Source: Anaerolineales bacterium
Lineage (GTDB): Bacteria; Chloroflexota; Anaerolineae; Anaerolineales; UBA11579
Length of the DNA: 42,956 nt
Assembly: GCA_016935415.1 (NCBI GenBank)
Contig: JAFGRA010000214.1
Coordinates: 1 to 42,956 of the forward strand
Reading direction: 5' to 3'
Below the pieces are notes generated by a model. That model worked only from the letters and a program-made list of their open reading frames with translations, had not been told where the DNA came from and did not search any database. A program made the translations under genes and the position numbers. Shown here piece after piece: positions 1,294-20,213 of the stretch (the first letter of the stretch is position 1; each line of letters begins with the position of its first letter).

Positions 1294-4515
<3,222 letters not shown>

Positions 4516-8389: not shown

Positions 8390-9313
8390 TCAGCCTTTCA
8401 AGCCGGTCAGCGAAATACCTTCGATGAAGGTGCGCTGGGCGAAGAAGAAGGCCAGAATGATGGGCATGGCGACAATCGTGCTGACTGCCATGAGGTGCGG
8501 GTAGGCGTTGGCCGAGGTGCCCATGCTGGTTGCGATCACCCGCAAGCGTTGGATACCCAATGCCAGTGGGAATAGGCTTTCTTCGTTCAGATAGATCAAC
8601 GGCCCAAGGTAATCATTCCAGGCACCCACGAAGCGGAACAGGGCAACCACCGATAGGGCGGGGATCGAGAGCGGCAGGATGATGCGGAAAAGTATGCCGA
8701 ACTCGGTGGCCCCGTCGATACGGGCGGCGTCCGAAAGTTCTTCGGGCAAGCCCATGAAGAATTGGCGCAGCATGAAGATAAAGTAGGGCGCGCCGAATAA
8801 AGAGGGCACGACCAGTGGACGGTAAGAGTTGATCCAATCCAGGTTGCGGAAGGTGATGAAGAGCGGCACCATGGTTACTTGCCAGGGCACCATCATGGTG
8901 GCGATACACAGGTAAAAGAGAATATCGCGGCCCGGCCATTTAAGTTTTGAGAAACCATAGGCAGTCAGCATCGATGAGGCCACGGTTGCCAGTGTAACTG
9001 GAACGGTATAGCGAAAAATCGAGTTGATCGTGAAGGTGGTGAACGGCAGGCGTGTCCAACCTTCAAAGAAGTTGTTCCAGTGAGCCGGAATAGGGATGAT
9101 CACCGGGGGGATCGTATAAATTTGGGGATCATTTTTTAGCGCAGAACTGATCATCCAGAACAATGGGAAGGCGAAACTAGTGGTGATGATGATGAGCAAT
9201 GTGTATTTTACGATTTCACCAATTGCCGTTTTAGTTGTGAGCTTTTTCTTGGCTTCACTTTTTTTGAGGATCGCTTGATCGTGCTGCTCTAAATTTTTAC
9301 TGATGGATGTCAT
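8390..9313 (-). CDS. Carbohydrate ABC transporter permease, MalG type
   Basis: A 307-residue inner membrane permease (CUT1 family, binding-protein-dependent transport superfamily) with six predicted helices after a ~40-residue charged N-terminal tail. The EAA loop that docks the ATPase is visible as EELSDAARIDGA...G...RIILPLS. The C-terminus (F.QRTFIEGISLTGLKG) is typical of MalG-type sugar permeases. ATG 9313 overlaps the stop of the MalF-type gene by 4 bp and has GAGGTGA upstream, so the pair is translationally coupled. No ATPase gene is present in the window, as in many CUT1 operons that use a shared MsmX/UgpC-type ATPase. Confidence 0.93.
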   Translation of the reverse strand: MTSISKNLEQHDQAILKKSEAKKKLTTKTAIGEIVKYTLLIIITTSFAFPLFWMISSALKNDPQIYTIPPVIIPIPAHWNNFFEGWTRLPFTTFTINSIFRYTVPVTLATVASSMLTAYGFSKLKWPGRDILFYLCIATMMVPWQVTMVPLFITFRNLDWINSYRPLVVPSLFGAPYFIFMLRQFFMGLPEELSDAARIDGATEFGILFRIILPLSIPALSVVALFRFVGAWNDYLGPLIYLNEESLFPLALGIQRLRVIATSMGTSANAYPHLMAVSTIVAMPIILAFFFAQRTFIEGISLTGLKG

Positions 9314-10227
9314 TCGTCACCTCCGTAGTAAACCCAGCGGGCGGATGTTTTAAATAGGATGATCGAGAAGAAAATGATGATCAAAAACAGCACCCATGCC
9401 ATTGCCGAAGCTTTACCCATCCGTAAATAAACAAAGGCGTTGCGGTAAAGATGAATGGCATAGAATTCGGTTGAATTCATTGGGCCACCTTGGGTCAACA
9501 ACCAGGGGATGGTGAATTCCTGGAAGGCGCCGATGAAACCCATGATCAAATTGAACAGGATCACAGGCGTGGTTATTGGAATGGTCACGTTCCAGAATTT
9601 TTGCCAGCTATTGGCACCATCGACAGTGGCCGCCTCGTAGAGGGAACGTGGCACATCTTGCAGCGAGGCCAGGAAGATCACTACAGCAGCACCCTGTGCC
9701 CAGACTGCCACGGCGATCATGGAGGGTTTTGCCAGGGCTGGGTTCGCCAGGAAAGGAATTGCCCGGAGTCCAAATGTCTGCAAGATCGAGTTGATCGCGC
9801 CGTATTGGATATTGAGCAGGAAGGTCCACACCATCGCCGAGCAGACCGCCGGTACGATGGATGGGACATAGATAATCGCCCGAAAGAACGACCGACCGAC
9901 GATTTCCTGATTGAGCAGGTTGGCAACCAAGTAGGCGAAGATCAACCCAAATGGTACACTCAAGCCAACGTAATATACCGTGTTGTACATCACATTCCAA
10001 AAATGAGGATCGTCGGTAAACAGCTTGATGTAATTCGTAGCGCCGATAAATACCGGGTCGCCGATCAAGTCGTAGCGCGTCAGGCTGACGTACGCAGAAT
10101 ATATCAGTGGGTAGACGGTGAACAGCAGGAAGCCAAAGATCCAGGGGGAGACAAAGATCAACCCCATAATCAGGTTGCGCCGTTCAATTCTTGTTAGTTT
10201 TCTTCTAGATCGTGGGATAACAGCCAT
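9310..10227 (-). CDS. Carbohydrate ABC transporter permease, MalF type
   Basis: A 305-residue CUT1-type permease with six predicted helices. The helix-1 motif is 'FVSPWIFGFLLF..YPL..S.Y.S', and the EAA loop is 'PRSLYEAATVDGA....F..VTIPITTP'. The C-terminal half includes the usual 'LTQGGP...T' segment. I chose ATG 10227, 8 nt after GAGAGG; an ATG two codons earlier (10233) is too close to that site. The partner of the MalG-type permease; together they form the membrane channel for the substrate captured by the lipoprotein encoded at 10487-11860. Confidence 0.93.
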   Translation of the reverse strand: MAVIPRSRRKLTRIERRNLIMGLIFVSPWIFGFLLFTVYPLIYSAYVSLTRYDLIGDPVFIGATNYIKLFTDDPHFWNVMYNTVYYVGLSVPFGLIFAYLVANLLNQEIVGRSFFRAIIYVPSIVPAVCSAMVWTFLLNIQYGAINSILQTFGLRAIPFLANPALAKPSMIAVAVWAQGAAVVIFLASLQDVPRSLYEAATVDGANSWQKFWNVTIPITTPVILFNLIMGFIGAFQEFTIPWLLTQGGPMNSTEFYAIHLYRNAFVYLRMGKASAMAWVLFLIIIFFSIILFKTSARWVYYGGDE

Positions 10228-10430
10228 GTGCATTACCTCTCGATTCTTCTAAGTCATTCTTTTTGTGCTAGATGGAAAAGTAAGCATATCTAATTATAGG
10301 TAAAAATTTTATTCTTGGTGGCTTTTTTACGTCACGAGTGGTCGGGATTTACCTGTGTGCAATAGAATTTTTTACTTATAACTAGATATGGGCTTAATAG
10401 AGCACATTGCCGGTGGCATCAATCCCAGGA

Positions 10431-12004: not shown

Positions 12005-12640
12005 TTAATTCATCAGGCTTTTTGCCAGGGATGCGGCCTGGCTGGCATCAGCAGCGTACCCATCCGCGCCGATCTCGGTGGCATATTCTGTGGTTACGGG
12101 CGCGCCGCCAATCAGCACTTTGACCTGCTCTCGCAGACCGGCTTCCTGTAGCTGGGTGATCACGGCTTGCATGTTCGGCATGGTGGTGGTGAGCAGCGCT
12201 GAGAGGGCGAGGATGTGGACCTGGTTGTCTTTTACAGCCTGGATGAAATTGTCGGCAGGGACATCAACGCCTAGATCGTAGATTTCGAACCCGGCACCTT
12301 CCATCATCATGGCGACCAGGTTCTTCCCGATGTCGTGCAGGTCGCCCTGTACCGTGCCAATCGCGACTTTGCCGAGCGGTTCTACCCCGCTTTCGACCAG
12401 CATGGGCTTAATGATCTCCAGACCCGCTTGCATGGCGCGGGCTGCGATCAGCATTTCGGGGACGAAATATTCGCCTTCTTCGAACAGACGACCGACCTCA
12501 CCCATAGCGGGGATTAGGCCTTGTTTGAGGATCGCTTCAGACTCAACGCCAGAATCGACGGCGGCTTGCACGGTTTCTTTTACCGCGCCCATGTCTCCTG
12601 CTAATACGTTGTCAAAAACTTTTTGTAAAGCGGCATCCAT
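12005..12640 (-). CDS. Corrinoid (B12-binding) methyltransferase carrier protein, MtaC/MtbC family
   Basis: A 211-residue methyl-carrier protein. Residues 1-85 form the helical cap domain ('F..GEYFVPEML.AA.AM' is typical). Residues 90-211 form the Rossmann-like cobalamin-binding domain with D100-x-H102-x-x-G105, the histidine being the lower cobalt ligand, then SALLTTTM and GGAPVT plus GADGYAADA, which line the nucleotide tail. In known systems the cobalt is methylated by a substrate-specific methyltransferase and demethylated by a URO-D-type one. ATG 12640 starts 3 bp after the URO-D-like gene, with GAGGTGT overlapping that gene's stop. No reductive activase (RamA/RACE) and no MttB-family gene is in the window, so those would have to be supplied elsewhere. 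Confidence 0.93.
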   Translation of the reverse strand: MDAALQKVFDNVLAGDMGAVKETVQAAVDSGVESEAILKQGLIPAMGEVGRLFEEGEYFVPEMLIAARAMQAGLEIIKPMLVESGVEPLGKVAIGTVQGDLHDIGKNLVAMMMEGAGFEIYDLGVDVPADNFIQAVKDNQVHILALSALLTTTMPNMQAVITQLQEAGLREQVKVLIGGAPVTTEYATEIGADGYAADASQAASLAKSLMN

Positions 12641-12643
12641 TTT

Positions 12644-13936
12644 TTACACCTCGAATGAGTCTAATTTAAGTGGGTATTGGCGATAGTCTTGTACAGCTTT
12701 GTAAAGTGCCTTTAAATTTTCACAAGGCACGCGGGCCTGGACGTTATGGCTGGGGTTGAAGATAAAACCACCACCTGCTCCAAATGTCAACATGCGTTCG
12801 TGGACTTCTTCCCGGACTTCAGCGGGCGTGCCGAAGGGCAGTGTCTTTTGCGTGTCCACGCCACCGCCCCAGAACACGACTTGCTCACCGAATTGCGCTT
12901 TTAGTGTGGCCGGATCCATCTCGGCGGCGGATGTCTGCACCGGGTTGAGGATGTCAAAACCAGCAGCGAGGATATCGGGAAGTAATTTGAAAATCGAACC
13001 GCAGGAGTGGATGAATGTTTTCCAGGTAGTGTTTTCGTGTACCCAATCATTTAGTTGTTTGTGATAGGGTTTGAATAACTCGCGATAAGCTTTTGGCGAA
13101 ATAAATGGGCCGTTCTGGGCGCCGAAATCCGTGCCGGTCAGGAAGACAACTGTAATGCGCTCGCCGACGACTGCATGGATGCGGGCCAGATTTTCCAGGG
13201 CGATTTCACACTGGCGGTCGAAGATGGCATGTACATAATCTTTACGCAGCACGGTGCTCATGTACCATTCTTCTACATCGCGGATGCCGCGCGGGTCCTT
13301 GAGCCAGGTGGCCGGGACCAAGGCTATATCGCCAAATGCGGTCCCACCAAAATTGGCTAGAATAGCTTTGTCGGTATTTTCATAAAGCCGTTTGGCTTCC
13401 ACTTCGAAATGTTTCAGGTCTGCTGCAGAGATCGGCTCAAATTCTTCCAGGTTGTCGGCGGGATCGAGTTTGTCTTCTTCAATCGGCGGCTGCCGGATGA
13501 TGGCATCGAAATAAAAACCCCCAGCAGGCATACGGCCACTAGGGGGTACAGTGCGGTCTCCTTCGGGGTACATCAGCAGATCGCCATTAGCTTCAATTTC
13601 GGTGTTGAAATCCCCTGGTACCAGCACAGGCGTGCCATCAAAAGTTTGCCATGGTTTCCAGTTTTCATTCCGATAGCCAAACATGGTTGTGGGGCTGGCA
13701 ATTGAAACCACATCAACTCCAAGCACTTCGATCAGATCATCCTTGATCTCACCCAACATCTGATAGGGTTCGATCACTTTCACCGGTGTACCTGGTGTGT
13801 CCAAACCCAGCGCCTGGCGTAACAGGTAGACAGAGCTAACATGCATTCCAGTGGTGTAGCTGCCCCCTAAATCCAATGGAACGCGATCTGATTCCTTGTG
13901 GCTTAAGGATAATTGAACTCGCTCTCTCGAATTCAC
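12644..13936 (-). CDS. URO-D/MtaA-superfamily methyltransferase, HxCG type (first operon gene)
   Basis: A 430-residue protein and the most methyltransferase-like of the three. It carries H310-x-C312-G, the zinc-ligand pattern of MtaA/MtbA, followed by DILNPVQTSA, 'FWGGGVDTQ..LPFGTP' and 'NPSHNVQ..VP'. C405 could be the third Zn ligand seen in family members. Expected reaction: methyl transfer between the neighbouring corrinoid protein and a thiol or folate acceptor, or from a methylated substrate. GTG 13936 is the only plausible start; its ribosome site is weak. It is the promoter-proximal gene of the minus-strand operon and is divergent from the response regulator gene at 14146. Confidence 0.87.
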   Translation of the reverse strand: MNSRERVQLSLSHKESDRVPLDLGGSYTTGMHVSSVYLLRQALGLDTPGTPVKVIEPYQMLGEIKDDLIEVLGVDVVSIASPTTMFGYRNENWKPWQTFDGTPVLVPGDFNTEIEANGDLLMYPEGDRTVPPSGRMPAGGFYFDAIIRQPPIEEDKLDPADNLEEFEPISAADLKHFEVEAKRLYENTDKAILANFGGTAFGDIALVPATWLKDPRGIRDVEEWYMSTVLRKDYVHAIFDRQCEIALENLARIHAVVGERITVVFLTGTDFGAQNGPFISPKAYRELFKPYHKQLNDWVHENTTWKTFIHSCGSIFKLLPDILAAGFDILNPVQTSAAEMDPATLKAQFGEQVVFWGGGVDTQKTLPFGTPAEVREEVHERMLTFGAGGGFIFNPSHNVQARVPCENLKALYKAVQDYRQYPLKLDSFEV

Positions 13937-14145: not shown

Positions 14146-15384
14146 TTGGATTCATTTACGCGTGAAGACTTTCTAGAAAATTTACGGAGCGCTTTGAAGC
14201 ATTTATATAATGCTGAATCTTTACGGAATAATCCATTAGCAGAATATTTTGAGATTGGGGATCAATTTGATACTGCTAACCGGTTGCGCAAAATTCTCAC
14301 GGATGGCATTGAAAAGCTAAAACCGCAAGATGATGAACCGGATAGTTCACGTGCCTGGCGGGTCCACGATTCGCTGTTTTGCTGTTATGTACAGCAGTTG
14401 AACCAACAGATCGTCGCTGACCAATTATGTATCAGCCCGCGGCAGTTGCGCCGGGAACAGCGCCTGGCGTTGGAAGCGTTGACGGACTTATTGGTACGGC
14501 AGGTGCAACAAAATCCTCAGAAAGCTTCTCATGTAGAAATAACCAGTTGGGATAAGGAATTGGATTGGGTGCAGGAACAACTCCCCGATGAGCCGACATT
14601 GCTCGACCAGGAATTGCAAACGGTCAAAGAGTTGACCGCTCCATTGGCGAAAAAGGAAAACGTTTCTCTGGAAATCGAAATGTCGAACCTCTTACGCCCC
14701 CTGGCAATCCACCCGGTGGTCTTGAATCAGATCCTGGTCAATCTGGTCAACGCCGCTATCAAGCAGTCATTGGGGGGACAGATCCGGCTAACGACTATGG
14801 CAACGGAATGTGGGGCTTTGGTTGCGGTTGGCACAACTGGTCTCCAGGAATCAAAAAGATATTCAGCCGTAGAGGAGATACCTGATATTCAAGTGGCGCG
14901 AGAGTTGGCCAAACTCAGCCGGGTGGAAATCACCTTTGACGAGATGGCCAACCAGCACTTCGCCGTAAAATTACTGATCCCCTGGCGGGAGCAATTCCCA
15001 GTATTGGTTGTTGACGATAACATGGATACCTTGCAGTTGTTCGAACGGTATGTTTCGGGCAGCCGCTACCGCTTGATCGTTACTCGGGATGCTGAGGAAG
15101 TCCTCGATCTGGTGGGAAAAGATCCGCCCTTGTTGATCGTGTTGGATATTATGATGCCCAAGACCAACGGCTGGAAGGTATTGGGTATGCTCAAGCAGCA
15201 CCCGCTTACGCAGGAAATCCCAGTAATGATTTGCACGATCTTGCCGCAGGAAGAACTGGCGTTTTCGCTTGGAGCGGAGGCGTTCGTGAATAAACCGATC
15301 AGCCGCCAGGTTTTTCTGGGGAAGCTGGACGAACTGGCTCAGTTGATGGGGAAAGGACTGAACCTAGAGTCTGGATGCAATTGA
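14146..15384 (+). CDS. Response regulator with degenerate kinase-like ATPase module
   Basis: A 412-residue protein. Residues ~60-125 look like a helical, HTH-like region (ADQLCISPRQLRREQR). Residues ~165-280 resemble a histidine-kinase ATPase domain: an N-box-like NQILVNLVNAA is present but the DxGxG box is lost and no phospho-accepting histidine motif is visible. Residues 285-405 are a complete receiver domain with VVDD, LDIMMP (phospho-acceptor Asp), a conserved Thr in VMICT and Lys in NKP. TTG 14146 is supported by GAGG 5 nt upstream. It is divergent from the corrinoid operon and convergent with the hybrid kinase, overlapping it by 86 bp. Probably the kinase's partner, with the output unknown. 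Confidence 0.75.
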   Translation: MDSFTREDFLENLRSALKHLYNAESLRNNPLAEYFEIGDQFDTANRLRKILTDGIEKLKPQDDEPDSSRAWRVHDSLFCCYVQQLNQQIVADQLCISPRQLRREQRLALEALTDLLVRQVQQNPQKASHVEITSWDKELDWVQEQLPDEPTLLDQELQTVKELTAPLAKKENVSLEIEMSNLLRPLAIHPVVLNQILVNLVNAAIKQSLGGQIRLTTMATECGALVAVGTTGLQESKRYSAVEEIPDIQVARELAKLSRVEITFDEMANQHFAVKLLIPWREQFPVLVVDDNMDTLQLFERYVSGSRYRLIVTRDAEEVLDLVGKDPPLLIVLDIMMPKTNGWKVLGMLKQHPLTQEIPVMICTILPQEELAFSLGAEAFVNKPISRQVFLGKLDELAQLMGKGLNLESGCN

Positions 15385-17560
15385 TCAGGTCGTTGAGGGA
15401 AAGTCCATCCCGGCGCGTGACCCGGATTTCATCACTGACAATGGCATCACCAATCGGGTTGATCGAAGAGATTACCATAACGGGGATATCCCGAATCGTA
15501 TCATCCAAACTTTTTTCGCGTAATAGTTGAAACCCGTCCAGGTCGGGCATAATTAGGTCGAGCAAGACCACATCAGGTTGGCGCTTGCGCATCAGGTTCA
15601 AGGCGCGCTTCCCGTTGGATGCTTGCAGGATGCGGTAATTGTCGTCGGTCGATGAAAGCATGCGGGTGAATAACTGCAAAATTTCGGTCGAATCGTCCAC
15701 CAACAAGATGCGCTTGACATCGATATCCAGTCTCTTGATCGCATTCAGAATTTCTTGCTGTCCGACAGGTTTTAATAGATATTCGACCACCCCCAGTTCC
15801 TGGGCAACCTTTTCCCGCCCTGGGATCCAACACGAAATCACCGGGGTATCCATTGGGATCGTAGAGAGTTCTTCTTCAATCTTCTCTTGCTCGCGTTTGG
15901 TTGTGGGGTTAAGAATCAGCGCTTGTGCAGGAGAACGATATAACTCTTGCACGGCTTCGGAAAAATCATTTTTAGCGACCACTTCGGCCCGATCCAGATA
16001 TCTGCGAAGCAAACGTTCCAAGATAACGTCGTCTTCGTAGAGCACGAAGCGGTTTAGGATCTCTTCTTCCGGCAGATTTGCGGTTCGCAGGCGGGGTTCA
16101 TATTGCTCATAAGGGTTGAAGTACCGGCGGGCGTTATCTTGGGGGCCTTCAGCGAATTGCAGATTGAGTTGCACGGGCAAGCTGAAGAAAAAAGTTGTGC
16201 CTGTCCCGAGTTCACTTTCCAGCCACATCCTGCCATCGTGCATCTCGACGAACTGTTTGCTGATCGTCAACCCCAGGCCGCTGCCACCACGGTGATTGCG
16301 GTAGATGCTTTCGATCTGGTGGAATGGTTGGAAGATATTCTTCTGGTCATCCAGTGAAATACCTGGGCCGGTATCGGTGACGCTGATTATGGTTTCTTCG
16401 CCATCTAACCACACTTTTATCAGCACACCGCCCTGGTCGGTAAAGCGCCCGGCGTTCCCCAGCAGGTTGATGATGACCTGGCGGATGCGTGTGCTGTCAC
16501 AGAAAATGGGAGGGATATCGGCGGTGATCTCCGTTTTCAGGTATAGTTCTTTAGAGTCAAAAAGGGCGCGTACAGCTTCCGTGGCTTCGTAGATGATTTC
16601 GGTGATCGAGGTCCATTCTTTGGTGATTGCCATGCGCCGGGCTTCGATCTGGCTCAAATCTAGGACGTCGTCGACCAACTTGGCGAGGTGCTGGCTGTTG
16701 CGGTAAATGGCGGCGATGTCGGCCAGTAGGGTGTCGGGGATGTCGCGGCCGTAGACGTGGGGGGAATTCATGATCGTGTCACTGAATCCAATGATCATGT
16801 TCAAGGGAGTGCGCAGTTCGTGGCTGACGTTGGCGACGAATTCTTCTTTTATGCGGCGGGCTTCTTCAGCAACCTGCTGCATGGCAGCCAACCTTTCGGT
16901 CAGGCGGGCCAGTTCCTTGTTTGCCAGCACGAGGTCTGCTTGGGTGTTGAGAAATTCCAGGCGCTGGGCGCGCAGGGTTTGCAATTCCTGGTCGGCACGC
17001 TGGTAATTGGTCACCGACCATTCATTCAAGGTTAGCAGGGAATCCGACAGCGACCAGATGATAACCAGCATGGCCGAAGACGAAATCGTGAACATCATCG
17101 TTACCGGGTTTTTCAGGTTAGGGATCATCCACTGATCTGGTGCGAGCCACACAGTCAACAGAATGATAGCCTGGAGGGCGATGGCACCGCTCCAACCGAT
17201 CGTGACGACGGCGAAGATTGGCAGTAGAAAATATAGATAGGCGATTTCAGGAAGCTGCAGCAGGTAGATCGCCAACGTAATACCGCAGAAAATACCGAAC
17301 AGCCAGGTGAAGTAGGCGGTTTGCAAATGATTGGCGATCAGGCGATTGGCCAGCAGGGAAGATGCTGCAACCACCATGACGACCAGTGTGATCTGGGGGA
17401 CGACAATCCATAGGTCGGTAACGTTTGCGGTTAGATACCAGAGCAAACAGATGATCAGGGTGGTGTAGATTAGGGCACGCGATTTAGTTTCGATGATCTG
17501 CTGACTGACGTCTGCATATACAGGATTGATATTTTCTGAGGTTTCGACGACATTCCACAT
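15299..17560 (-). CDS. Membrane hybrid histidine kinase with pseudo-receiver and receiver
   Basis: A 753-residue sensor kinase. Residues ~25-185 hold six or so membrane helices with little extracytoplasmic sequence, so it may sense a membrane signal. A coiled coil follows. The HisKA domain has its histidine in ANVSHELRTPL, and the HATPase domain has its N-box (NLLGNA), DTGPG and GGSGLGL. Then comes a degenerate receiver (DD changed to ED, acceptor Asp replaced in LILNPT, Lys kept in LLKP) and a second receiver with LLVDD and LLDLIMP, but no clear conserved Lys near its end. ATG 17560 is preferred: AGGAG lies upstream, and the longer frame (to 17725) would start upstream of the promoter at 17618-17645. 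Confidence 0.85.
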   Translation of the reverse strand: MWNVVETSENINPVYADVSQQIIETKSRALIYTTLIICLLWYLTANVTDLWIVVPQITLVVMVVAASSLLANRLIANHLQTAYFTWLFGIFCGITLAIYLLQLPEIAYLYFLLPIFAVVTIGWSGAIALQAIILLTVWLAPDQWMIPNLKNPVTMMFTISSSAMLVIIWSLSDSLLTLNEWSVTNYQRADQELQTLRAQRLEFLNTQADLVLANKELARLTERLAAMQQVAEEARRIKEEFVANVSHELRTPLNMIIGFSDTIMNSPHVYGRDIPDTLLADIAAIYRNSQHLAKLVDDVLDLSQIEARRMAITKEWTSITEIIYEATEAVRALFDSKELYLKTEITADIPPIFCDSTRIRQVIINLLGNAGRFTDQGGVLIKVWLDGEETIISVTDTGPGISLDDQKNIFQPFHQIESIYRNHRGGSGLGLTISKQFVEMHDGRMWLESELGTGTTFFFSLPVQLNLQFAEGPQDNARRYFNPYEQYEPRLRTANLPEEEILNRFVLYEDDVILERLLRRYLDRAEVVAKNDFSEAVQELYRSPAQALILNPTTKREQEKIEEELSTIPMDTPVISCWIPGREKVAQELGVVEYLLKPVGQQEILNAIKRLDIDVKRILLVDDSTEILQLFTRMLSSTDDNYRILQASNGKRALNLMRKRQPDVVLLDLIMPDLDGFQLLREKSLDDTIRDIPVMVISSINPIGDAIVSDEIRVTRRDGLSLNDLINCIQTLGSVLSPSTEPVRPASPEKPGG

Positions 17561-17617
17561 AGCAGTTATTGCTCCTGGAGGGTAATCATAAAGCTTATTT
17601 CGTGTGTTGCCTTCTAT

Positions 17618-17645
17618 TTTATACCTACAGCGCGTAGGGTGACAA
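17618..17645 (-). promoter_or_regulatory. Sigma-70-type promoter of the hybrid kinase
   Basis: On the minus strand, TTGTCA (17645-17640), a 16-nt spacer and TATAAA (17623-17618) lie about 58 nt before the ATG at 17560, giving a leader of ~50 nt. Confidence 0.6.
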
Positions 17646-17878
17646 TGTAAATCCGGCGCGCCAATCCTGCTTCGGATTGGAAGCAAGCATATCATGTTTT
17701 GATTAATGAAATGAGGCCACCTCAAGTGTTAGGGATGTTCTTAATCTATGGTCTATGAATTTAATGGAGACGGAAGAGAGAACCTTCAAGGCATTGTCCA
17801 AGCTTCTAGAGGAATAGGATATGTTTTGCGCAACTTCGCAGCATCACTTACATCTAGTACTGCCGTGAAAAAATAGTA

Positions 17879-17884
17879 TATAAT
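17879..17884 (+). promoter_or_regulatory. -10 box predicting a leaderless GroEL-like transcript
   Basis: A perfect TATAAT ends 6 nt before the ATG at 17891, and no ribosome site separates them. The expected transcription start therefore coincides with the start codon. No good -35 is visible. Confidence 0.55.
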
Positions 17885-17890
17885 GACGCC

Positions 17891-19543
17891 ATGCCTAAAT
17901 CAAAGACGAAATCCGTTGTTTTTCAACCATCGACCTACCGGGGTATGCAGCGGGGAATCAATAAAATCATTGCAGGTATTCGACCAACCTTAGGCCCGAC
18001 CGGGGGTGTTGTTGCCGTTGAGCAAGTGCTCAAAGATAAATTGCCAGAGATGCTGGATAATGGTGCGACGATTGCCCGCCGCGTAGTCGAGCTTCCGCAT
18101 CGTGATGAAGATGTGGGTGCGATGTATGTGCGCGAATTCCTATGGAACGTGCAGGAGCAGGTCGGGGATGGTACCGCCACGGCGGCAGTGCTTTTCCAGA
18201 AGATTTACAACGAAGGGCTGCGCTACCAAGCCGCGGGCGGCAACACCATGCGCCTGCGCAAATTTTTGGAAGAGGGCATGCGTGTCATCCTGGACGAGCT
18301 GGACGGGATGACCTTACAGGTCGAAGGCAAAGAACAACTGGCGCAAGTTGCCGAAACCGTCTGCCATGATGCGGAACTAGCCGCAATGTTGGGCGAGGTT
18401 TACGACATCATCGGCGCGTACGGCCGCCTGGAATTGCGTAAGGGACGCACGCATAGTATCCGGCGCGAATATCTGGAAGGCATCTATTGGGAAAAAGGTT
18501 TGCTCTCGCGCCGCATGATCCTGGATGGGGACGACGCCATGGTTAAGTTGGAGAACCCGGCCATCCTGATCACTGATCTGGCGGTTGAAGACCCGCGTGA
18601 ATTACTTCCGGCGATCACCGCGGCGGCCAAGGGTGGGGCCAAGTCGCTGGTGCTGGTGGTTGAAAAGCTATCAGAAGTGGCGATTGGCATGTTGTTGTCC
18701 AACAAAGATCCTAATAAATTCCGCGTGGTGGCTGTGCAGACCCCTGGAACGGGCAAGCAAGCTCAGATTGCCGCGCTGCAAGATATGGCGATCCTGACGG
18801 GGGGACGAGCGATTACGAAGGATGCCGGCGGTAAGATTAGCGCGGTCAAATTCGAGGATTTTGGCCATGCCCGGCGCATTACAGCTAACATGCGCGTCTT
18901 CCGCATCATGGGCGGTAAAGGCGATGCGCGCAAATTGCGTTCGCATGTTGCGGCGTTGCGCGAGGGCTACCAGAATGTTGCTGATCTGGAAGCACGCGAA
19001 CAACTGCGGGTGCGCATTTCTAAGCTATTGGGCGGCACAGCAACGATCTGGGTTGGCGGTCCGAGTGAATATTTCATTGAGCAGCGCAAGGAACTGGCCG
19101 AACATACCGCTGCGGCCGTACGCGGCGCTTTGATGGAAGGTGTGCTGCCGGGGGGCGGGGTGGCGCTTTACAATTGCAAAGCGGCCCTGGAAAACATTGC
19201 GCGCACAGAAGCGGACGTCGACCGGCGGGCGGCTTATCGCATGCTGAGCCAGGCGCTGGAAGAACCGATTCGCACGATCATTCGCAACGCGGGATTTGAT
19301 GACAGCGAAAAGCTGGCGGAAGTGCAGCTACACGAGCCGGGATATGGTTTCGATGTGTTCGCAGAGCAGGCCACGGATATGGCCACAGCCGGAATCGTCG
19401 ATGTGACTTCAGCGATAAGGGCAGCCGCCTTTTACGCCATTTCCAGCGCCGCGCTGGCGCTCACCGTCGATGTGCTGGTACATCGCGGCCGTCGTCAGGA
19501 GCAACCCGTCATCAAGACTTCCGGGATGCGTAAAAAGATATAA
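17891..19543 (+). CDS. Divergent GroEL/Hsp60-like chaperonin paralogue
   Basis: A 550-residue type I chaperonin relative (E. coli GroEL 548). The equatorial ATP-site motifs are present: TLGPTGG (33-39; GroEL has TLGPKGR), VGDGTATAA with the metal-binding D93 (GroEL D87), GVLPGGGVAL (417-426) and D504 (GroEL D495). Two catalytic residues differ: the position of D52 (KDG) reads N57 (DNG) and that of D398 reads H405, so ATP hydrolysis may be slow or altered. The C-terminus ends RKKI, not the GGM tail. No groES is adjacent. Probably not the housekeeping chaperonin; a specialised or regulatory ring is likely. The start is fixed by the TATAAT 6 nt upstream. Confidence 0.87.
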   Translation: MPKSKTKSVVFQPSTYRGMQRGINKIIAGIRPTLGPTGGVVAVEQVLKDKLPEMLDNGATIARRVVELPHRDEDVGAMYVREFLWNVQEQVGDGTATAAVLFQKIYNEGLRYQAAGGNTMRLRKFLEEGMRVILDELDGMTLQVEGKEQLAQVAETVCHDAELAAMLGEVYDIIGAYGRLELRKGRTHSIRREYLEGIYWEKGLLSRRMILDGDDAMVKLENPAILITDLAVEDPRELLPAITAAAKGGAKSLVLVVEKLSEVAIGMLLSNKDPNKFRVVAVQTPGTGKQAQIAALQDMAILTGGRAITKDAGGKISAVKFEDFGHARRITANMRVFRIMGGKGDARKLRSHVAALREGYQNVADLEAREQLRVRISKLLGGTATIWVGGPSEYFIEQRKELAEHTAAAVRGALMEGVLPGGGVALYNCKAALENIARTEADVDRRAAYRMLSQALEEPIRTIIRNAGFDDSEKLAEVQLHEPGYGFDVFAEQATDMATAGIVDVTSAIRAAAFYAISSAALALTVDVLVHRGRRQEQPVIKTSGMRKKI

Positions 19544-19562
19544 TTCATTTTCGCTAGCAGAT

Positions 19563-19594
19563 AAAAGCAGTCCAGCTAAACTGGGCTGCTTTTT
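19563..19594 (+). terminator. Terminator of the GroEL-like gene
   Basis: Arms 19563-19575 and 19581-19593 pair (13 bp with one G-T wobble), 5-nt loop, ending in a short T-run, 20 bp after the stop codon. Confidence 0.85.
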
Positions 19595-19683
19595 ACGTTT
19601 AAGCTTCGATAACAGATGTTTCTTATCCTGATTTTTGCAACCGAGCTGCATTTTCTACGTACTGTATAGTGAAAAGGATATTG

Positions 19684-19736
19684 GGTAAATGCCCGAAGGA
19701 TTTTGTAAAAGAAAAATACTTGCCAAGGCATTTACC
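19684..19736 (+). repeat. Long-range inverted repeat in the leader of the PspC gene
   Basis: GGTAAATGCC (19684-19693) is exactly complementary to GGCATTTACC (19727-19736), with 33 nt between the arms, and lies 80-130 nt before the PspC-protein start. It may be a pair of operator half-sites or a leader RNA fold. The rest of this 271-bp gap is AT-rich with no gene. Confidence 0.5.
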
Positions 19737-19814
19737 AAAGGAACTGACCGTTCATAGCCTTCAAAATAAGTCTAAATACATTCAGTCAGTTGCCTGAAAA
19801 GGAGTATATTAAAA

Positions 19815-20213
19815 ATGGATAAACTTTATCGGAGCCGTAATGACGTTTGGATCGCTGGTGTATGTGGTGGTCTGGGCAGATACCTGGGGATTGATCCCAC
19901 GATCGTCCGCCTGTTCTTTGTTTTGCTTTTCTTTGCCGGTGGCAGTGGGCTGCTGATCTATTTGCTGATGATGTTGCTCATGCCGCGTGCCCCGGAAGGC
20001 GAAGAACTCCCGCACGCCGTGGTGCCATTGGGTGAAAACCCGCAGGCCGCCCTGATCGTTGGGGTTGTGCTGATCGTCTTTGGAGGATTTTTCTTCCTTG
20101 GCAACCTCGATATCCAGTGGCTGCATTGGATGCGGATGGGCAATTTGTGGCCGCTACTGCTGGTCATTGCCGGTGGCGTTTTGCTCTGGCAGAGTACGCA
20201 TAAGGAGGCCTAA
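19815..20213 (+). CDS. PspC-domain membrane protein
   Basis: 132 residues. The N-terminal ~60 residues are a PspC domain (KLYRSR.D..IAGVCGGLG.YLGID.T..RL followed by a hydrophobic helix), which in stress systems couples envelope damage to regulation. Two further hydrophobic helices follow (res ~78-96 and ~110-125), like the small LiaI-type transmembrane unit. AAGGAG precedes ATG 19815. The next gene starts 1 bp after its stop, so the two form an operon. Likely role is envelope-stress sensing or response in the cytoplasmic membrane. Confidence 0.87.
   Translation: MDKLYRSRNDVWIAGVCGGLGRYLGIDPTIVRLFFVLLFFAGGSGLLIYLLMMLLMPRAPEGEELPHAVVPLGENPQAALIVGVVLIVFGGFFFLGNLDIQWLHWMRMGNLWPLLLVIAGGVLLWQSTHKEA

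Follow-up and report, generated by a model that had tools for sequence, protein, structure and literature searches.

Textbook descriptions of GroEL treat the aspartate D398, ATP turnover and GroES as inseparable. When D398 is replaced together with D52 (D52A/D398A), E. coli GroEL hydrolyzes ATP very slowly. The D398A substitution alone leaves ATP binding normal and ATPase activity at 3% of the wild-type level, and the mutant still encapsulates and folds proteins (PMC3326522); the football structure 3WVL was obtained with the double mutant, which PMC5941174 lists with a probable misprint, D358A. Diverged natural GroELs are found in chlamydiae, whose additional GroEL2 and GroEL3 have altered ATP- and GroES-binding regions (PMC1892554). 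Among group II chaperonins, CCT has seven-bladed propellers as clients (PMC8544692), one of which, mLST8, was seen in a near-native state, with CCT subunit termini holding it between the two rings (PMC6599039).

Here we describe a chaperonin gene from a 42,956-nucleotide contig of an Anaerolineales bacterium (JAFGRA010000214.1, assembly GCA_016935415.1; "the window"). It represents a little-noticed branch of GroEL whose members mostly adjoin a β-propeller gene, a pair that is new to the literature we found: searches of open-access papers for chaperonins with Anaerolineae or propellers, and for GroEL with BNR repeats, returned nothing relevant. A conserved natural clade that lacks D398 and groES and has a propeller instead would offer evolved, rather than engineered, cases that bear on the purpose of ATP hydrolysis by chaperonins.

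Results

A divergent group I chaperonin with both catalytic aspartates replaced

By both fold and sequence, the window protein is a full-length member of the group I chaperonins (GroEL superfamily). Pfam Cpn60_TCP1 (PF00118) covers residues 30 to 531 (E = 7.3e-39; 134 bits against a cut-off of 34.3), GroELs are the top PDB matches at about 31% identity, and Foldseek matched the predicted structure to GroEL with E = 4e-45. Fold, domain order, the ATP-binding loops, D87 and D495 are all shared with E. coli GroEL (groL), at about 31% identity over the full length. On the GroEL equivalog model TIGR02348, however, the protein scores 341.9 bits, below the curated cut-off of 582.1, while a canonical GroEL of its own genome (L001) reaches 793. 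That genome encodes two canonical GroELs, to which the window protein is 31% identical, and two groES genes, one adjoining each canonical GroEL. Among NCBIfam models, neither the chaperonin nor its propeller partner (below) reaches a specific cut-off, and only the broad GroEL subfamily is reached.

An earlier note had placed N57 at GroEL D52 by a motif match and H405 at D398 by a local alignment. We confirmed both assignments by aligning the whole protein against groL of E. coli and both canonical GroELs that its genome encodes; the register was verified at K34, K51, D52, D87, D398 and D495; because the window alignment has no gap near residues 48 to 58 or 394 to 404, this register is unambiguous. 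The window protein thus lacks both catalytic aspartates of TIGR02348. The same alignment bore out the claims that D93 (D87), the glycine loops and D504 (D495) are retained, so that all ATP/Mg-binding loops (G32, D87-G88, G414-416 and D495) are present, and that the lysine K34 of TLGPKGR has become a threonine (T37). As the H405 codon is one base from the arginine codon CGT, and arginine is the residue of 42 of the 48 core relatives, this histidine probably arose from arginine and not directly from aspartate. Two other claims held only in part. The GGM tail is absent, but it is also missing from L002 (contig C233), a canonical GroEL of this genome, so its loss is not diagnostic and no sign of specialization; and the statement that there is no groES is true of the locus but not of the genome.

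No CIRCE element was found in the window with up to three mismatches allowed, and we therefore rejected HrcA heat-shock control of this gene. A perfect CIRCE (L196:3790-3816) precedes the canonical groESL on contig C233 of the same genome; the second canonical groESL (contig C101) has none on its short contig. Elsewhere, the window contains a LacZ-type GH2 β-galactosidase with a small-chain domain (1360-4515, +), a B12-binding corrinoid protein and a URO-D family (methyltransferase-like) protein that probably form a corrinoid methyl-transfer pair (12005-13936, -), and, at 14146-17725, a response-regulator gene (+) and a hybrid histidine-kinase gene (-) that converge with overlapping 3' ends (15299-15384). 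Two carbohydrate ABC permeases lie at 8390-10233 (-), and in many relatives (L126, L132, L133, L140 and L143) such permeases immediately precede the chaperonin gene. We note these sugar permeases without proposing a general link to carbohydrate uptake, as the contexts vary.

Table 1. Coordinates of the chaperonin gene, its flanks and its ATP-site codons in the window
Feature	Position	Strand	Observation
Divergent group I chaperonin gene	17891..19543	+	550 aa, ATG start, intact ORF
Divergent intergenic region, histidine-kinase gene (-) / chaperonin (+)	17726..17890	.	No CIRCE/HrcA site
Slot of propeller gene in most relatives	19544..19814	.	Empty in window; PspC next, at 19815
T37 at GroEL K34	17999..18001	+	From alignment; in TLGPTGG; Lys lost; most relatives Leu or Arg
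D56 at GroEL K51	18056..18058	+	Codon GAT; Asp in 47/47 core
N57 at GroEL D52	18059..18061	+	Codon AAT; core column D22 N16 S7 T1 K1
D93 at GroEL D87 (Mg ligand)	18167..18169	+	Kept in 48/48 core
H405 at GroEL D398	19103..19105	+	Codon CAT; Asp in 0/48 core, R in 42
D504 at GroEL D495	19400..19402	+	Kept in 47/47 core

A chaperonin clade across Chloroflexota

The window gene is a member of a chaperonin clade that extends across Chloroflexota, a phylum assigned from gene content and kinship labels, and is found beside, not instead of, canonical GroELs. In a search of the order, 15 of 400 genomes carried relatives that clearly exceeded what canonical GroELs reach, and many more were recovered when samples of the class and phylum were searched with profiles. 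We refer to sequences that score much better with the relatives' profile than with the canonical profile as the core (n = 48, including the window protein, which scores 793 bits on the core profile and has the non-Asp residue at 398 and the Asp at 51 that mark the clade). A maximum-likelihood tree, built by a quick method with the trait columns left out and a limited outgroup, gave full support to the split between core and intermediate sequences on one side and the canonical outgroup on the other. One sequence (L065:11512-13516, from G057) was left out of the tree, as it is split into two frames with Ns inside, probably by an assembly gap.

The nearest relative of the window gene (L068) is 56% identical to it, and dozens of relatives at 31-56% identity carry the same kind of changes in independent assemblies. 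Purifying selection acts on the clade: across several close pairs, dN was well below dS in both the chaperonin and its propeller partner, and the pairs tested had dN/dS ratios of about 0.03-0.2. Phage or plasmid origin was rejected: the best matches listed from phages and plasmids (tblastn) and an IMG/VR scan were all GroELs whose identity of 26-34% is typical of ordinary GroELs, and none of them belonged to the clade. A scan of a genome-contig collection gave a single match, an unrelated Prevotella GroEL. PADLOC matched neither the chaperonin nor the propeller, and a role in anti-phage defense was rejected.

Loss of D398 is shared, while loss of D52 is variable

Aspartate is found at position 398 in all 30 canonical GroELs and in none of the 48 core sequences, which have Arg (42) or, once each, His, Asn, Ala, Tyr, Lys and Val. 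Position 52 is mixed, with Asp in 22 core sequences and other residues in 25 (Asn 16, Ser 7, Thr 1, Lys 1). The core keeps D87 (48/48), G32, G88, G414-416 and D495, and has changes in the pocket at K34, T90 (Ala in 45) and S151. Parsimony on the tree assigned two changes to the loss of D398 and about 11 to position 52; together with the column counts, this indicates that D398 loss is old and shared, that D52 loss has occurred repeatedly, and that the aspartate just upstream is fixed in the core. Conservation of N57 and H405 among orthologues, which had been proposed as a check, was thus found in part: N57 recurs in the nearest relatives and D398 is lost throughout the core, but the loss of D52 varies.

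Since D398 is lost in every core relative under purifying selection, a naturally slow or non-hydrolyzing chaperonin is a serious idea. The suggestion that D56 might compensate for a lost aspartate agrees with its conservation, as it is invariant while its neighbor at position 52 is variable. The clade has residues replaced at the same positions as in the E. coli D398A and D52A/D398A mutants, from which ATP binding with slow hydrolysis would be expected. It differs from those mutants in being natural and conserved, in its residue at 398 (Arg or His, against Ala in the mutants), in an extra Asp at 51, and in lacking a GroES partner gene.

The core loci lack groES, and GroES contact residues are replaced

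A groES gene adjoins 26 of 30 canonical loci, but none of the 48 core loci, and none was found in 57 wide neighborhoods. Among intermediate loci, groES is present only at L107-L111, where D398 is kept and no propeller adjoins the chaperonin; as neighbors, groES and the propeller are mutually exclusive. The apical residues that contact GroES and substrate are also replaced in the window protein and most relatives: Y199 by Leu or others, Y203 by Glu, Arg or others, F204 by Met, and V264 by Ala, Ser or others, while the L237 position stays hydrophobic. Thus, neither the adjoining gene nor the contact residues of a GroEL/GroES system are present at this locus. R197 and E255, which form inter-subunit salt bridges in GroEL, are mostly lost in the clade, and the inter-ring positions E434 and V464 are changed as well.

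The structure predicted for the window protein (pLDDT 85.1, built on 17 sequences) resembled GroES-bound subunits (TM 0.81-0.87, mostly 3.3-4.0 Å) far more than subunits in the open state (TM about 0.6, about 11-12 Å), in a comparison made without a canonical GroEL control.

A β-propeller is co-inherited with the chaperonin

An all-against-all comparison of genes at the loci of 57 relatives clustered a single same-strand gene at the +1 position in 45. In profile searches, 40 of the 48 core chaperonins had this gene as a neighbor, against 0 of the 30 canonical GroELs; in linked core pairs it is the next gene on the same strand, mostly overlapping or within about 20 bp. It encodes a protein of about 310 aa of the BNR/Asp-box type (Sortilin-Vps10 and Ycf48-like; PF15902, PF14870), apparently without a signal peptide as judged by eye, in which the motifs WNFGLLD and NGGRAWRE are nearly invariant. 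AlphaFold2 modeled it with a pLDDT of 94.5 and seven repeated strand groups, as a putative seven-bladed β-propeller, and Foldseek matched the model to Ycf48, GH74 and WD40 propellers. In some relatives, tandem double propellers of about 625-640 aa are encoded in one protein (L062:10242-12113, L162:9921-11804 and L159:6312-8225). The family shares its repeat type and fold with Ycf48/HCF136 and other BNR/Asp-box propellers, but scores 49 bits against the NCBIfam Ycf48 cut-off of 326, has its own WNFGLLD motif, and, unlike Ycf48/HCF136, has no evidence tying it to photosystem II.

In a whole-genome search, the genome of the window was found to contain exactly one propeller of this family, unlinked to the chaperonin gene (G000:C60:5616-6515, -; 399.9 bits). 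G600, G754 and G302 likewise carry both genes, either unlinked or far apart. Among 396 genomes sampled from the class, the propeller (E <= 1e-60) was present in 46 of the 49 that carry a core chaperonin and in 24 of the 347 others (Fisher p = 1.4e-38, a guide only, since score thresholds were self-chosen and the genomes are related). Most of these 24 genomes carry an intermediate chaperonin. Of the three core genomes without the propeller at this threshold, G696 has an adjoining weaker copy, and G618 and G585 have no clear family propeller; in the order sample, no family propeller was detected in G032 and G057, both of which have the chaperonin. Pairwise identities of chaperonins and propellers were correlated (r = 0.88, with 0 of 2,000 Mantel permutations as high), which partly reflects shared ancestry. 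This co-inherited propeller, absent from the earlier note, is the main clue to the function of the chaperonin, and the pairing of the genes suggests a dedicated two-protein machine.

The propeller also adjoins intermediate relatives that keep D398 or have Glu there (L100, L102, L105, L112-L117, L119 and L121). Loss of D398 is thus not needed for the pairing, as L100, L102 and L105 keep this residue.

Discussion

Relative to GroEL, the clade has lost D398, has lost or variable D52, carries an Asp at position 51 and altered K34, T90 and S151, has changed GroES/substrate residues and no adjoining groES, and is paired with a propeller. The reading that we favor, if tentatively, is a GroES-independent, slow or non-hydrolyzing ATP-binding chaperonin dedicated to a cytosolic seven-bladed BNR/Asp-box β-propeller; it is favored because of the gene pairing and co-occurrence, the changes in the active site and GroES contacts, and the precedents of D398A and CCT. 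We infer that the subunit forms a ring and makes physical contact with a single dedicated propeller, encoded elsewhere in the genome of the window. Such a ring would bind ATP, as the loops and D87 are retained, and would hydrolyze it slowly or not at all, as D398 is gone, so that ATP would serve more to lock a conformation, or to time a very slow process, than to fuel fast cycling. Its most likely task would be folding, holding or assembling the propeller as a client, by analogy with CCT/TRiC, which acts on the seven-bladed propellers Gβ and mLST8. CCT differs in being a group II chaperonin with eight-membered hetero-oligomeric rings, an active ATPase and WD40 rather than BNR/Asp-box propellers. 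If this reading is true, the pair would be, to our knowledge, a first counterpart in bacteria to CCT and the propellers that are its clients, and the partner gene makes its function directly testable with two purified proteins. Standing against it, the invariant D56 and near-universal Arg at 398 could permit hydrolysis by another geometry, and a few lineages (G618, G585, G032 and G057) have the chaperonin with no detectable propeller.

A propeller that is only a client leaves the dispensability of groES unexplained, and the main rival is that the propeller is a cofactor in place of GroES, a seven-bladed plug or lid seated on the apical domains of all seven subunits in a ring locked by ATP, which would result in a stable two-protein compartment or scaffold. 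This is possible, although we think it rather unlikely. The exchange of neighbors between canonical and core loci (groES beside 26/30, propeller beside 40/48), the replaced apical contacts, the seven modeled blades, the GroES-bound-like subunit model and the tandem double propellers all speak for it. Conversely, more propellers have seven blades than any other number, and the match in symmetry may therefore be fortuitous; the model of the closed state was built on 17 sequences and lacks a canonical GroEL control; and the dome of GroES is larger than a single propeller. We are more doubtful still of the version in which one propeller serves as a symmetry-matched lid or permanent core and ATP is a structural lock that is not cycled.

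The clade might instead consist of diverged GroELs with an ordinary, normally cycling ATPase, in which D56 and, in the relatives, the Arg at 398 stand in for D52 and D398. An aspartate at the D56 position in 47/47 core sequences whatever the residue at 52, the retention of D87, D495 and the loops, and the strong purifying selection would fit this, but we consider it unlikely: D398 is invariant in canonical GroELs (30/30) and its removal alone lowers ATPase activity to 3% (PMC3326522), the pocket residues T90, S151 and K34 have also changed, and the window protein has His, not Arg, at 398.

Mixing of a non-hydrolyzing subunit into canonical GroEL rings, slowing or redirecting them, seems improbable. 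The two canonical GroELs of the genome and the common fold would allow it, but identity to them is only 31%, the inter-ring (E434, V464) and inter-domain (R197, E255) contacts are changed, and the tight pairing with a propeller would be left unexplained. A decaying duplicate or assembly artefact, which a single copy in one draft assembly with both catalytic positions changed could suggest, is extremely improbable given the intact ORF, the dozens of similarly changed relatives in independent assemblies and the dN/dS of about 0.03-0.2, and for the clade as a whole the intact relatives and a dN much lower than dS rule out pseudogenes and assembly errors.

The clade resembles chlamydial GroEL2 and GroEL3 in being a diverged paralogue beside a canonical GroEL, but the NCBIfam models for these give the window protein 87 and 101 bits against a cut-off of 600. 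We know of no propeller partner for the chlamydial proteins.

Finally, a separate propeller-adjoining chaperonin lineage from other Chloroflexota (L112-L118; for example, L113:1471-3144) has GNG in place of GDG, replacing the Mg ligand (D87N), and has Glu at D398 while D52 is kept. This lineage represents a second, independent remodeling of the ATP site.
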